From: an uncultured Bacteroidaceae bacterium
GTDB lineage: Bacteria; Bacteroidota; Bacteroidia; Bacteroidales; Bacteroidaceae
Assembly (NCBI GenBank): GCA_944320785.1
Contig: CALUIR010000024.1
Coordinates: 1 to 42,418 of the forward strand
Reading direction: 5' to 3'
Length of the DNA stretch: 42,418 bases
Part shown: positions 6,731 through 35,280 of the stretch, piece after piece
How the letters are laid out: every line of letters begins with the position of its first letter
Numbering within the stretch: the stretch's first letter is position 1
Notes under the pieces: generated by a model
Database searches by the model: none
Seen by the model: the letters and a program-made list of their open reading frames with translations, nothing else
Told to the model about the DNA's origin: nothing
Made by a program: the position numbers and the translations under genes

Positions 6731-6801
6731 ACGATTAATAATCGTACACGTGTACGATTATTAATCGTCATGCCGGAAGATTATTAATCGTGCAGGAGAT
6801 T
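6731..6801. repeat. Three-unit 23-bp tandem array of palindromes (array A)
   Basis: The core GATTAATAATCGT (6733) or GATTATTAATCGT (6756, 6779) recurs at exactly 23-bp steps. Each core is itself nearly palindromic (ACGATTAATAATCGT at 6731-6745). The first two units together make a perfect 38-bp palindrome (6731-6768). The 10-bp parts between cores are unrelated. It lies in the gap between the AT-rich island and the core genes, about 140 bp before the lipoprotein promoter. Function unknown. Confidence 0.85.
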
Positions 6802-6829
6802 CTTCACAGTAAAGTTTCAAATTTTATGG

Positions 6830-6849
6830 GTAAAGTGCGCTCGCTTTAC
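6830..6849. other. Hairpin GTAAAG / CTTTAC
   Basis: A six-base perfect stem around an eight-base loop, flanked by AAATTT on both sides, which could extend the fold through an internal loop. It lies in the same gene-free gap (6599-7021). Nothing else convincing is seen between here and the lipoprotein promoter. Confidence 0.35.
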
Positions 6850-6938
6850 GGGTGAAATTTGCGGTTTTGCCGTATAAAATCCTTTTGGCCTGCCGGGACG
6901 GGGCGGGTAATGGGCGAGTGTTAATTTATGCTTCCTTG

Positions 6939-6969
6939 CTTGCGGGGTCGCTTATTCTGCTTATCTTCG
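6939..6969 (+). promoter_or_regulatory. Promoter-like pair for the lipoprotein gene
   Basis: CTTG (6939-6942), a 19-base gap, then TATCTTCG (6962-6969), one base off the TAnnTTTG -7 consensus. The spacing is that expected for Bacteroidetes sigma-ABfr promoters. Transcription would start near 6976, about 45 bases before the ATG at 7022. Confidence 0.45.
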
Positions 6970-7021
6970 CGAAAATGACAGAATGTTTTTTCCCCGGCGT
7001 TCCGGGATAAATCGTAGAGGT

Positions 7022-7855
7022 ATGAGAAAGACAGGATTATGGCTTTGCGGCATTTTGCTGCTTTTTGCGGCTTGCGACGACGGGGGCGAGCGGAAGGCCC
7101 GCGCCCATCTGCGGCAGGCGGAAGAGGCTTTTGCGGCTGGCGCGTTCAGCGAAGCGAAGATGCAGATAGACAGCATCCGGGTGTTGTATCCCAAAGCTTT
7201 CGAGGCGCGCCTCGAAGGCATCGCGCTGATGCAGCGGGTGGAGTTGGAGGAACAGCGGGTGGGCTTGGTGTTCCTGGACAGCCTGTTGCGGGTCAGGCAG
7301 GCCGACTTTGAGGCCGTGAAAGGGAAGTTCGTTTTTGAGAAGGACACGGCTTACCAGGAGGTGGGGAATTATTTCCATCCCTCGCAGACGGTGGAGAAGA
7401 ACGTGGGCCGCACGTTCCTTCGCGCGCAGGTGGACGAACACGGGCAGATGCTGCTTTCATCCATTTACCGGGGCAGCCATCCTATCCATCACCATGCCGT
7501 GCGGGTGAGCGCGGACGATGGCAGCTTTGCGGAAACGCCCCGCACGGATGATGTGTACGAAACCTCCTATTTGGGCGTGCTGCAGGAGCAGGCCGACTAC
7601 AAGTTGGGCGAGGACGGCGATGTCATCGGCTTCATTTCCCTGCACGAGGGCGACCGCATCAAGGCAGAGTTCCTCGGCAAGCGCAAGTACGTGGTTTACC
7701 TCCCTGAGGCAGACCGTGAGGCCATTTCCGAGGTGTATTCGCTGGCACAACTGCTGTCGGCCATCGACGGCATCAAGAAACAGATGGCAGAAGCCCGGCT
7801 GAAGATGGAGTTCATCACCCGCAAGATGGCGGAGAAGGAAGCTACCGGCGGATAA
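7022..7855 (+). CDS. Predicted lipoprotein of unknown function
   Basis: 277 residues. I chose the ATG at 7022 over the in-frame one at 6983. It places [18 protein letters not shown] at the N-terminus, a signal peptide with lipobox LFAAC, so Cys18 would be lipidated. A helical region follows (about 25-120, many Ala/Glu/Arg, e.g. [23 protein letters not shown]-like). A beta-rich middle part ([18 protein letters not shown] strands, [15 protein letters not shown]) comes next, and the C-terminal 45 residues are helical and charged, perhaps coiled coil. No family recognised. The last 14 bases overlap the 3' end of the convergent folE, leaving no room for a terminator between them. GC content is clearly higher than in the genes to the left. 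Confidence 0.7.
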
Positions 7856-32966: not shown

Positions 32967-34532
32967 ATGAAAAAGACAAGCAAGATGGTAGTTTTGGGCC
33001 TGCTGGCCGTGGCCGGAAGCCTGAACGCGCAGACAATGTATGACGCAAACCGCCTAATGCAGGCCGACCTGAACGGGACAGCCCGTTTTGTGGGGATGGG
33101 CGGCGCCATGGGCGCTTTGGGCGGTGACCTTTCCACGATGGGGACGAATCCCGCAGGCATCGGCATCTACCGCAGCCACGACATGGCGGTGTCCTTTGGG
33201 TTCAACCGCGCCAATTCGCAAAGCAACCTGAACGGGAATGTCATGGACGACGGGCGCACCAAAGGTTCGTTTGACAATGCCGGGTTCGTCTTTTCGCAGA
33301 AGATAAGCAACAAAGGGACGTTGCGGTATGTGAACTTCGGGTTCAACTACCAACGCCTGAAGTCGTTCAACAAGCAGATGACGATGGGCGGAGAATACCT
33401 TTCGGGCGTGTCGCAGACCGATCAGATGGCAGCACAGACTGACGGCCTGTTGCCCACGGACTTCGATGGCGATCCGTGGAGCGTGCTTGACATTGGCTGG
33501 CTATCTATTCTGGGATGGCAAGGCGCCTTGACTTACCAGACATCGGAGGATGAACGTAAGTACACGGGGTTTCCCAGCGAGACGTTGCCTTATGGTGATT
33601 TCTCGTCCACAGAGAGCGGCGGCATCAATGCTTTTGACTTCAATTTGGCATTCAACCTGTTGGATCGCGTGTATTTGGGCTTCACGTTGGGCATCTACAG
33701 CGTGGACTATTCGCGCTACACATGGTATCGCGAAGGCTTTGACTATACGCCGGAGACGGGCGATCGTTCCTTCTACACCAAGGAAGACAACTTCCGCACC
33801 ACGGGGACGGGCGTGGACTTCAAGTTGGGCATCATCGCCCGGCCTTTTGACGGGGTGCCTTTGCGCATCGGGGCGGCCGTCCACACGCCGACCCGCTACG
33901 CGTTGAAGGACGTGGCCGACTGCGTTCTCCTTTCTGACTTGGATTATGACCTGAATGGAGAAGTGGAATATTATGATGTATATACGCCGGACGGCGGCAG
34001 CCTGACGGAATATACCATCGTCACGCCGTGGAAGTACAACGTGAGCTTGGGCTATACGGTGGGTTCCAAGCTGGCCATTGGCGCTGAGTATGAGTTCAGC
34101 GACTATTCCACGGCGAAAATCAAGGACTATGCCGGGACGGAACTGGGCGAGGCCGATGAAGTCCTCACGAAGCAGTTCATGAAGGGGGTGCATACCATCC
34201 GTGCGGGTTTTGAGTATAACCCGTTGAGGTGGCTGGCCATCCGGGGAGGCTACAACCACGTGACCCAGTCAATGGATGATGGGGCTTACAAGGTGATTCC
34301 TTACGAAGGGCCGAACTCGGTGCGGACGGACACGGAGTATGCCAATCCGAAGGCGTTGAATGTCTATACGGCCGGGCTTGGTTTCCGTGGCGGGATGTTT
34401 TATGCGGACGTGACGTACCAGTTCAAAAAGCAGTGGGAAGATTTCTTCCCGTTTGATAACACGGCGTTGGAGGCGACTTCCGTGAAGAATGTACGCCATC
34501 AGGTGCTGTTCACGTTAGGGCTTCGTTTCTGA
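32967..34532 (+). CDS. Outer-membrane protein of the OmpP1/FadL-like family
   Basis: 521 residues from the ATG at 32967, which gives the signal peptide MVVLGLLAVAGSLNAQ; an ATG 11 codons upstream overlaps the previous gene. The mature N-terminus has ARFVGMGGAMGALGGDLSTM then NPAGIGIYRSHDMAVSFGFN, the NPAG block typical of FadL/PorV-like barrels. The rest alternates in short amphipathic strands (YLGFTLGIYSVDYSRYTWY, KLAIGAEYEFSDYST, WLAIRGGYNHVTQSM) and ends in a terminal aromatic strand (RHQVLFTLGLRF). Family members move hydrophobic compounds or, as PorV, serve type IX secretion. Which applies here is not shown by sequence. It shares a transcript with the low-complexity gene and ends before a bidirectional terminator. 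Confidence 0.82.
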   Translation: MKKTSKMVVLGLLAVAGSLNAQTMYDANRLMQADLNGTARFVGMGGAMGALGGDLSTMGTNPAGIGIYRSHDMAVSFGFNRANSQSNLNGNVMDDGRTKGSFDNAGFVFSQKISNKGTLRYVNFGFNYQRLKSFNKQMTMGGEYLSGVSQTDQMAAQTDGLLPTDFDGDPWSVLDIGWLSILGWQGALTYQTSEDERKYTGFPSETLPYGDFSSTESGGINAFDFNLAFNLLDRVYLGFTLGIYSVDYSRYTWYREGFDYTPETGDRSFYTKEDNFRTTGTGVDFKLGIIARPFDGVPLRIGAAVHTPTRYALKDVADCVLLSDLDYDLNGEVEYYDVYTPDGGSLTEYTIVTPWKYNVSLGYTVGSKLAIGAEYEFSDYSTAKIKDYAGTELGEADEVLTKQFMKGVHTIRAGFEYNPLRWLAIRGGYNHVTQSMDDGAYKVIPYEGPNSVRTDTEYANPKALNVYTAGLGFRGGMFYADVTYQFKKQWEDFFPFDNTALEATSVKNVRHQVLFTLGLRF

Positions 34533-34564
34533 CAAGGCCTGTTTCATAGGTTGCATCGCATTTG

Positions 34565-34603
34565 CGGAAAAGGCTGCTTCCAAGGGGGAAGCGGCCTTTT
34601 CCG
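34565..34603. terminator. Bidirectional terminator between the FadL-like gene and guaD
   Basis: CGGAAAAGGC pairs with GCCTTTTCCG and GCTTCC with GGAAGC, a 17-bp stem with one T-G pair around a five-base loop. T-runs occur on both strands. The stops of the two convergent genes lie 32 and 4 bases away. Confidence 0.85.
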
Positions 34604-34607
34604 TTTC

Positions 34608-35078
34608 TTAATAGCGCACCTTGTCGTCCTTTTCCTTCCAGTCGCGGAATGCTTGGAGGGCTTCATCACGTAGCAGGCATTCGGACGGCAGGCGGCGTTC
34701 CGAGGGCGGCAGGGCGATTTCTTTGTAGATGAATGAGTCATCGAACCCGGCATCTTGGGCATCTGCCTTGTTGTTGGCATAGTAAAGCTTGCTGAGGCGG
34801 GCCCAATAGATGGCGCCGAGGCACATGGGGCAGGGTTCGCAGGAGGTGTATATCTCGCATCCGGAGAGGTCGAAGCTTCCTGACCGGCGGGCGGCTTCGC
34901 GGATGGCGTTGACTTCGGCATGGGCTGTTGGGTCGCATCCGGGCGTGACGCGGTTTGTCCCTGTGGCGATGATTTCCCCGTCTTTCACGATGACGGCGCC
35001 GAAAGGGCCGCCTCCTTGCTTAACGTTTTCTATGGAAAGCTCGATGGCTTTCTTCATGAATTTTTCTTTTGCATCCAT
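34608..35078 (-). CDS. guaD: Guanine deaminase
   Basis: 156 residues from ATG 35078 (MDAKEKF), the same length as the Bacillus-type enzyme. It converts guanine to xanthine and ammonia in purine salvage. Visible: GGPFGAVIVKDGEIIATGTN, then DPTAHAEVNAIREAA (zinc His and catalytic Glu), YTSCEPCPMCLGAIYWARLS (zinc Cys pair), and AGFDDSFIYKEIALPPSERR, which favours guanine over cytosine or tRNA-adenosine deaminases. The C-terminal Tyr (DDKVRY) matches the enzyme family that swaps its last residues into the active site. A longer frame reaching 35630 is rejected because the extra part is the repeat array and antisense of the next gene. A weak -7-like box lies at 35113-35120. Confidence 0.93.
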   Translation of the reverse strand: MDAKEKFMKKAIELSIENVKQGGGPFGAVIVKDGEIIATGTNRVTPGCDPTAHAEVNAIREAARRSGSFDLSGCEIYTSCEPCPMCLGAIYWARLSKLYYANNKADAQDAGFDDSFIYKEIALPPSERRLPSECLLRDEALQAFRDWKEKDDKVRY

Positions 35079-35178
35079 GGTTGTTTTTCCTTTTGTTTGT
35101 TGATTGCGGGGATAAATATAGGCATTCCGGGCGGAATTTTTACGTGTTTTGCTTTTTATTCCTGCATTCCGGCGTTGG

Positions 35179-35280
35179 TTTGGCCTTTCAAAATCCAGGT
35201 TTGACAGGCCAAAATCCCAATTCGACGGGTCAAAGTCAGAATTTGACCCGTCAAATTCCCATTTTGACGGGTCAAAATGG
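35179..35280. repeat. Five-unit 21-bp tandem array of palindromes (array C)
   Basis: Fourteen-base cores start at 35179, 35200, 35221, 35242 and 35263, exactly 21 bp apart. The consensus is TTTGAC-SS-GTCAAA. In the last two units the palindrome extends with matched but different flanks (AATTTGAC...GTCAAATT, and CCATTTTGAC...GTCAAAATGG). Units become less regular toward the left. It is upstream of guaD and contains no spacers, so it is not a CRISPR array. Confidence 0.9.

Follow-up and report, generated by a model that had tools for sequence, protein, structure and literature searches.

The window, a stretch of 42,418 nucleotides from an uncultured Bacteroidaceae bacterium (GCA_944320785.1, contig CALUIR010000024.1), contains intergenic tandem arrays of palindromic units, referred to here as A, B and C. 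Array B occupies a divergent gap and lies upstream of the -7 boxes of both trxB and a gene encoding a 429-aa protein (31648-32937); the boxes were called by the -7 consensus. The features are as follows.

6696 to 6730, no strand: left flank of array A, holding palindromic units that are E-like (AAACCTT..AAGGTTTT); the flanks of A loci resemble one another
6731 to 6791, no strand: array A, three units ACGATTA-n-TAATCGT (6731-6745, 6754-6768 and 6777-6791 by direct reading), the third being AAGATTATTAATCGT; period 23, spacers of 8 bp
31298 to 31305, minus strand: -7 box TATATTTG of trxB
31370 to 31408, no strand: outer, GC-rich H-type units left of B in the window copy, period about 22, limits set by eye
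31409 to 31417, plus strand: conserved left boundary of B, AACTTCTTT; positions -6 to -3 are invariant in 36 copies
31418 to 31497, plus strand: array B, four palindromic 17-bp units ATCYYTARSYTRRRGAT (31418-31434, 31439-31455, 31460-31476 and 31481-31497 by direct reading); RYRY spacers, period 21
31498 to 31503, plus strand: conserved right boundary of B, GAACTT
31504 to 31530, no strand: outer H-type unit right of B, limits set by eye
31540 to 31576, no strand: B2, two GGGGAA..TTCCC units
31599 to 31606, plus strand: -7 box TATTTTTG of the 429-aa gene
35179 to 35276, no strand: array C, TTTGACSSGTCAAA, with a period of 21 and a weak first unit followed by four clear ones (35179-35192, 35200-35213, 35221-35234, 35242-35255 and 35263-35276)

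Direct reading bore out the 21-23 bp period, the palindromy and the intergenic position that an earlier note on this DNA had given for A, B and C. The same note counted B2 as a fellow array, which does not hold: B2 has only two units and is present in the orthologous gap of a relative (L069) that lacks array B, indicating a separate feature near the promoter and at most a candidate member of the array system. The L069 gap has diverged so far that no junction can be seen where array B is absent. Array C has an orthologous array in L069 with the centre GT.

Dispersed families and the double-stranded code of B

A different core had been claimed for each array; instead, A, B and C each belong to a dispersed family that shares one core. 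The genome holds approximately 55 intergenic copies of the B family, 40 of the A family and at least six of the C family. The two-unit, R/Y-coded B pattern, with one mismatch allowed, matches 164 times per strand and the A pattern 77 times, against 0 in the reversed control for each, placing both above chance. Within a 400-kb sample of the genome, TRF assigned a period of 20-24 to 19 of 24 intergenic tandem arrays, and the palindromy of the TRF consensus, taken alone, reached individual significance (p<0.05) for 6 of 14 intergenic arrays listed. In this sample, which contains none of the paired HU-HIG genes described below, the cores of B, A, F and D recur at 6, 4, 7 and 2 places, respectively; the core found upstream of gene L197 occurs at one place, that of L199 at two, both of which are the D places, and that of L202 had no match in the sample.

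Variation among 36 copies of B is almost entirely confined to transitions, with 365 transitions versus 2 transversions among minor alleles away from the unit centres. Watson-Crick pairs between the arms are about as frequent as independent variation of the two arms would give, C.A combinations are about as common as T.G (75 versus 68) and A.C as G.T (25 versus 28), and compensatory arm changes are not seen in the B copies. Independent arms combined with a 365:2 ratio of transitions to transversions lead to rejection, for B, of the hairpin-templated correction proposed in the earlier note, and fit double-stranded DNA read by a protein; at the level of sequence, what is conserved in B is a purine/pyrimidine pattern of double-stranded DNA and not a hairpin. 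Minisatellites grown by slippage, their symmetry held by such correction, would account for the tandem palindromic form and for the variable number of A units (three in 17 of 21 copies, four in two and two in two), but not for the missing arm covariation, for a core common to several genera, or for the exactly four units in all 36 B copies, although these were picked by similarity to the window copy and the same unit criterion gave four units in 3 of 6 copies of an unbiased sample. Slippage is barely tenable as an explanation of the arrays.

Palindromic units could also act as RNA, with tandem hairpins in the transcript serving as terminators, stabilisers or processing signals, and the outer units of B, which are GC-rich and of H type, do appear able to pair when judged by eye. 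In B itself, however, arm independence led us to reject a hairpin, and the array shows no strand bias in tandem gaps, with 8 copies oriented with the genes and 10 against (a tally that counts the divergent window copy as tandem). Arrays in general are found in every gene orientation in roughly background proportions, and an RNA function is very unlikely. Intrinsic termination by B was discarded for its lack of orientation preference and its non-pairing arms, and the conserved pairing hairpin arms of RAYT-mobilised REP/BIME elements are likewise missing from B, whose arms vary independently. A CRISPR array, which would have identical repeats and unique spacers of about 30 bp, was also rejected: the spacers are 4-bp RYRY or 8-bp and the repeats are divergent. 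Two sources for the R/Y code itself were dropped, namely an RNA guide with wobble pairing, because A and C are among the invariant positions, and a mutational cause of transition-only variation, because transversions do occur in A-array spacers (by reading, uncounted).

Among 301 Bacteroidaceae genomes B is present in 8 and A in 7, each patchily and in high copy number. This distribution, along with the orthologous L069 gap that lacks array B, is what would be expected if the arrays were mobile but non-autonomous, MITE- or REP-like repeats dispersing between genes, with the copies upstream of HU-HIG genes being ordinary insertions, and the similar BrickBuilt element of Porphyromonas gingivalis has been described as a MITE (PMC4596501). 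Against mobility, B copies show little relatedness structure (pairwise SD 0.079 versus 0.069 shuffled) and vary almost only by transitions (365:2), and some B positions are the same in different genera, next to AcrAB, the queG operon and HU-HIG. Inverted AAnTT-type boundaries flank B, and no clean empty site was identified for it.

Arrays and HU-HIG genes

The likely partner of the arrays is an HU-type protein of the HU-HIG domain family (Pfam PF18291), reportedly the subject of work by Burroughs and Aravind in 2017. Many members have a C-terminal region, which the Pfam description and our own profile suggest is a winged helix. Ten proteins scanned against Pfam and the L057 protein match PF18291 with E values of 1.8e-35 to 2.7e-17; scores exceed the Pfam cut-off and the HU domain has an N-terminal extension. 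In a phylum-wide search with PF18291, most matches outside the bacterium's own family cover only the HU part of the profile, and many of these were used as a plain-HU class. A PDB sequence search returned one weak match only, to a plain HU, and an AlphaFold model of a Phocaeicola HU-HIG, built on a two-sequence alignment, was uninformative (pLDDT 46) and was set aside. The literature search for HU-HIG found no target sequence or array pairing.

Of the 29 HU-HIG genes of the wHTH type, those with the C-terminal region, 27 have an array of period 20-24 in the 300 bp upstream (26 pass the low-complexity filter), as do 33 of 75 short-type genes (28 pass), versus 0 of 22 in the plain-HU class and 26 of 504 control genes. 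Two of the 42 short-type genes below the array threshold, L195 and L281, have arrays by other measures. TRF placed arrays at 25 of 38 HU genes versus 21 of 504 controls (Fisher 3e-21). Only one of nine single-domain HU-HIGs of other families (L236-L244) reached the threshold, with a low-complexity array. Arrays were found in 9 of 12 further records, or 7 of 9 once three records of genes already in the first set are removed (L338 = L217, 99%; L339 = L231, 100%; L343 = L233, 93%), an overlap that leaves the odds as they were. An upstream array is a rule of the wHTH type and does not extend to every PF18291 gene. Random insertion of mobile repeats would leave the 27 of 29 unexplained.

The arrays in front of these genes carry distinct cores. 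In genome G000, the A core is found upstream of the HU-HIG gene at C11:53235-53681 (L196), a B array upstream of that at C20:7481-8116 (L198/L206), F upstream of C31:15288 (L195) and D upstream of C13:739 (L200), with further cores upstream of L197, L199, L201 and L202; in P. massiliensis, an GTGGTTAA array precedes an HU-HIG gene. The A-type product of G000 has 149 aa and its B-type product 212 aa. Specificity was assessed by scanning 400 bp upstream of 139 distinct HU genes for two-unit arrays. With 0-1 mismatch, A arrays stand before only four of the 139 (L196, L287, L281 and L290), all A-type, two more A-type genes follow at 4 mismatches, and the next best has 9; B arrays with 0-1 mismatch likewise stand before only four (L198, L207, L208 and L210), all B-type, the next best having 8. 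Restriction of A and B arrays to A-type and B-type genes is a second point against mobile repeats, which we consider an unlikely source of the arrays.

Across genomes the pairing holds in part. Orthologues of the A-type protein (at least 62% identity) are present in 5 of 7 genomes with A arrays versus 0 of 33 others (Fisher 3e-5), and G300, picked for its A arrays, met the prediction with an HU-HIG gene, L281, whose product is 63-64% identical to A-HU and which is preceded by an exact A array. B-HU homologues (at least 48% over most of the protein) are present in 4 of 8 B-array genomes versus 1 of 22 others. G036 has a 56% B-HU homologue and no B pattern match, its own array being a variant with 8 mismatches. 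Array similarity follows protein identity overall (Mantel rho 0.28, p 5e-4). By sequence comparison, a code that is identical or related recurs at orthologous HU-HIG genes of other genera and is absent from unrelated ones, suggesting that each such HU protein owns a repeated genomic address code.

This pairing has exceptions. Some close paralogues, such as L221 and L222 (81%), carry different arrays. G102 and G117 have A-like matches yet no A-HU orthologue, and the 51% match to B-HU in G102 covers the C-terminal half only. G001, G005 and G117 have a few B matches and no HU-HIG of at least 48% identity. G014 is a clear exception and a failed prediction, with 82 B pattern matches per strand and no HU-HIG gene with a B array found. 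For C and E, none of the 139 scanned HU genes carries their array (best 7 and 9 mismatches), and no partner HU gene was found for H. Through the pairing with separate HU-HIG genes, the earlier idea of same-face dimer sites, with a different protein for each core, gains support for A and B and weaker support for D and F; for C no partner was found.

Another protein, either an ordinary regulator or a nucleoid protein, might bind the arrays and control HU-HIG along with many other genes. The location of an array cannot by itself name the binder, and the missing partners of C, E and H and the B arrays of G014 would fit such a protein, but it would demand a dedicated regulator for each HU-HIG gene, and the code tracks HU-HIG orthology. 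We regard a different binder as improbable, and the arrays are likely to be tandem platforms to which HU-HIG-type members of the HU family bind with sequence specificity.

A proposed model of HU-HIG address codes and its relation to known elements

At 15 of 25 HU genes with an array, a TAnnTTTG box precedes the array by 13-98 bp, versus 0.9 expected, whereas dispersed B copies, placed relative to the box of 46 facing genes, are upstream in 34, downstream in 1 and without a box in 11. Examined B neighbours were varied, and regulation of one operon type by B was dropped. In the proposed model, each array-bearing HU-HIG paralogue would have its own palindromic code of 2-5 repeats with a spacing of two helical turns (21-23 bp), which would set neighbouring dimers on the same face. 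The HU-HIG protein would bind its array; at its own gene, where the array often follows the -7 box and precedes the start codon, binding may repress transcription and so provide autoregulation. At tens of dispersed sites, successive in-phase bends could produce a wrapped nucleoprotein node, which would determine the state of the promoter or the structure of the chromosome around it.

More tentatively, Bacteroidota may possess orthogonal protein-address systems that together form a plug-in set, in which fast-diversifying HU proteins each read a private tandem-palindrome code at tens of chromosomal sites, gained and lost between genomes, and form wrapped nodes there. The code could switch between close paralogues, for example from ACGAT/ATCGT of A to AAGAT/ATCTT in a 70% identical protein. 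This raises the question of why one chromosome would need several parallel HU systems.

The putative binders resemble the nucleoid proteins IHF, which is sequence-specific, and HU in having an HU-type domain by sequence, and DNA bending is expected of them, but here one genome has many paralogues, and each has a tandem palindromic code to itself. Iteron arrays of plasmid Rep proteins are also tandem sites spaced about two helical turns apart with an autoregulated binder; the present arrays are chromosomal, with tens of dispersed copies, palindromic units and a putative HU-type binder. Dispersed sites of a chromosome-organising protein are known from matS/MatP, SBS/SlmA and parS/ParB, whereas here each site is a tandem array and a single genome combines several codes.

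With these data, a large class of intergenic repeats in gut Bacteroidota that had lacked an explanation gains a candidate partner, and a large family of HU-type proteins that has been little studied gains a possible target. As many HU-HIG genes carry their own code adjacent to them, binding sites should be predictable from sequence and a protein-DNA code could be learned from natural pairs.

The earlier note knew of no described element of this form, but BrickBuilt is one and is the closest published: both are tandem repeats with dispersed intergenic copies in a Bacteroidales host, a likeness drawn without regard to palindromy of the BrickBuilt repeat. BrickBuilt has 23-nt repeats at 19 dispersed intergenic copies, and differs in its larger number of repeats (up to 22.8) and in having a leader and a tail, with inverted repeats at its termini; it also has target duplications (PMC4596501). 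Its authors read it as a transposable element (MITE) and possible mobile promoter, and their main text contains none of the terms histone-like, nucleoid, IHF and 'HU protein' (PMC4596501). Repeats now called MITEs, BrickBuilt among them, become testable as protein docking sites. Five DNA/RNA-binding proteins are among the 38 BrickBuilt neighbours by the authors' count, and BrickBuilt_14 (84 nt) lies between PGN_0871 (minus strand) and PGN_0872 (plus strand), the latter listed in their Table 1 as 'DNA-binding protein (PF00216)' (PMC4596501), an annotation by which BrickBuilt_14 adjoins an HU-type gene.

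Palindromic array families of the source genome

Direct reading of the window, contig 24 of the source genome, bears out the description of arrays A, B and C. The closest locus with a name is L069 (uncultured Bacteroides sp.), and its orthologous gap keeps array C at the same period with a different centre (TTTGACGTGTCAAA). B2, also put forward as an array, has two units only (GGGGAA..TTCCC) and is shared by L069, whose orthologous gap lacks array B; it probably serves to regulate the 429-aa gene. Features next to array B in the window are:

31370-31408, H units
31504-31530, H units
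31540-31576, two-unit feature B2

Arrays A, B and C are not singletons: each recurs across the source genome, G000 (2.57 Mb, 84% complete), which is related to Bacteroides and Phocaeicola. Searching the whole genome with array B returned at least 76 matches over the two strands, 40 of the 69 candidates having been scored, and its two-unit purine/pyrimidine (R/Y) pattern gave 164 matches per strand against 0 for the reversed control, corresponding to about 55 four-unit elements. Pattern A has 77 matches per strand (~40 arrays) and array C 13 matches at 6 places. Among 301 Bacteroidaceae genomes, B is present in 8 (6 of 30 genera, at most 164 matches per strand) and A in 7 (3 genera), with controls at 0 throughout both surveys; sampled congeners of B-bearing genomes often have zero B matches. 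Periods of 20-24 account for 19 of 24 intergenic tandem arrays found by TRF in 400 kb of G000, 15 of 27 in 312 kb of a second genome, G001, and 33 of 74 arrays in loci of relatives, into which coding repeats leak and where the caller is poor (58% called coding). Array cores vary from species to species in this TRF survey. Throughout the analysis the gene caller was simple and the genomes mostly drafts.

The B element

The B unit is ATCYYTARSYTRRRGAT followed by RYRY. All 36 copies compared, namely 35 from the whole-genome matches plus the window copy, all window-like, have exactly four 21-bp units, and the positions of would-be units 0 and 5 look random (6-11 mismatches of 17); in an unbiased sample under the same unit criterion, three of six B arrays have four units, two have three and one has two. 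Outside the four centres, minor alleles comprise 365 transitions and 2 transversions. Compensatory arm changes did not emerge among these copies: Watson-Crick arm pairs are about as frequent as independent columns predict, and the mismatched pairs are about equal within each kind (C.A 75 vs T.G 68; G.T 28 vs A.C 25). As the arms vary independently and transitions dominate, what B conserves is a pattern of purines and pyrimidines in double-stranded DNA. Transition to transversion counts in other genera are 64:2 (G093, 6 elements), 37:1 (G023, 4), 24:10 (G244, 3) and 40:13 (G014, 4), the last inflated by one array that has three units and no true unit in the fourth place; these elements were picked by the R/Y pattern and are less independent evidence than the BLAST-found G000 set.

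By eye, a G093 array (L187:9858-9958) has five units rather than the usual four. At two positions, unit 1 of B is richer in T than the other three units. The B arrays of G000 and G001 sit within GC-rich 22-bp H units (GGAAnYTCC / TTGCCCGCATG), with different flanks in other genera, and A is likewise flanked by E-like units.

HU-HIG genes and their arrays

B arrays in G000 (L057) and G244 (L191) adjoin homologous genes, 54% identical, and the G000 gene belongs to PF18291, 'HU domain fused to wHTH, Ig, or Glycine-rich motif'. This HU-HIG family was reportedly described by Burroughs and Aravind. Phocaeicola arrays already known from TRF (GTGGTTAA-n-TTAACCAC) also precede genes of this kind. Of the eight G000 genes with a near-full PF18291 match, seven are closely preceded by an array as judged by TRF or lag score (for L195, TRF alone), and L202, the eighth, has its array roughly 230 bp upstream; none was found upstream of the G000 genes with partial or plain-HU matches (L203-L205). 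A, B, F and D cores each precede a different G000 HU-HIG gene and recur elsewhere in the G000 sample. Most HU genes were located by protein search, independently of arrays; those to which arrays led first are L072, L075 and the B-type genes in G000 and G244.

TRF placed arrays before 25 of 38 HU genes vs 21 of 504 control genes, the controls being drawn from G000 and G001 only. By lag score, with duplicates removed, arrays precede 27 of 29 genes of the wHTH type (P 2e-28), 33 of 75 of the short type, lacking the C-terminal region (P 2e-17), 0 of 22 in the plain-HU class (one of which, L219, is an HU-HIG fragment) and 26 of 504 controls; 26 wHTH-type and 28 short-type positives passed a low-complexity filter. 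The wHTH label follows profile coverage and how Pfam describes the family; the one direct winged-helix match was weak and below cut-off. A further 12 wHTH genes were taken from plasmid and phage records, 12 of the 16 that matched (B. finegoldii, P. massiliensis, Bacteroides sp. CACC 737, Parabacteroides distasonis and two unverified phage contigs), the large records named plasmids appearing to be draft contigs. Nine of these genes exceeded the threshold, two, whose arrays can be seen by eye, fell narrowly short of it, and one had no array; without three genes repeating the first set, 7 of 9 exceeded it.

To gauge specificity, the upstream 400 bp of each of 139 distinct HU genes were scanned. 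Arrays of two A units with 0-1 mismatch lie before L196, L281, L290 and L287, all A-type, and the variant AAGATTATTAATCTT before L280 and L289, also A-type; the next best A match has 9 mismatches. B arrays (0-1 mismatch, next best 8) precede L198, L207, L208 and L210, all B-type and 46-64% identical to each other, and a D array precedes L200 only (0 mismatches, next 3). Neither array C (best 7 mismatches) nor array E (best 9) precedes any of the 139 genes, and no HU gene partner was found for H. A-HU orthologues (at least 62%) occur in 5 of 7 A-array genomes vs 0 of 33 others (best match among those listed 37%), and all those found carry A or A-like arrays. B-HU at 48% or more occurs in 4 of 8 B-array genomes vs 1 of 22 others (Fisher 0.011), the one being G036, with a variant array. 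An HU-HIG gene with an A array was predicted for G300, which has A arrays, and found (L281); the equivalent B prediction for G014 failed. One of the HU genes of G014, L267, lies at a contig end with 193 bp upstream only. Protein identity correlates with array similarity (Mantel rho 0.28, p 5e-4), and close paralogues with differing code exist (L221 and L222, 81% identical).

In the open-access literature searched, no paper linked HU-HIG to repeats; Table 1 of PMC4596501 gives an HU-type gene (PF00216) as a neighbour of the P. gingivalis repeat BrickBuilt_14.

B arrays stand beside shared genes across genera (L011/L178, L068/L185, L026/L175, L057/L191), the shared neighbours being AcrAB-type efflux, the queG operon, TetR-TolC-HlyD and HU-HIG. 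Family D arrays (GGATACGTATCY; L044:2704-2784 and L134:4054-4119) are an R/Y variant of the array before the L200 HU-HIG gene, and family G of G000 (L125:14545-14619, CAAACCACTGTGTGGTTC) resembles the Phocaeicola GTGGTT arrays before HU-HIG genes L072 and L075.

Array position and proposed mechanism

In 15 of 25 cases (0.9 expected from shuffles) the array before an HU gene follows a TAnnTTTG box, the Bacteroides -7 promoter box, at 13-98 bp downstream; none of the 15 precedes a B-type gene. A position downstream of the box is the place for a repressor, and the home array, the one before the HU-HIG gene, would serve autorepression of that gene. Dispersed B arrays, scored against 46 facing genes, lie upstream of the box in 34, downstream in 1 and face no box in 11, and for dispersed A arrays the counts are 9, 0 and 8; such arrays may each form a positioned nucleoprotein node. 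In-phase bending at the arrays is likely, since their pitch is two turns of the helix and the putative binders are HU-family proteins, an expectation that draws on what is known of HU and IHF.

The 36 B loci examined all lie between genes, in gaps called as 18 tandem, 14 divergent and 4 convergent vs 47, 21 and 8 among 76 background gaps of at least 200 bp; the gene caller missed the divergence at the window copy, which was called tandem and is really divergent. At 31409-31428, the left end of B with unit 1 (TTTATCTTTAG) is similar to the TAnnTTTG box.
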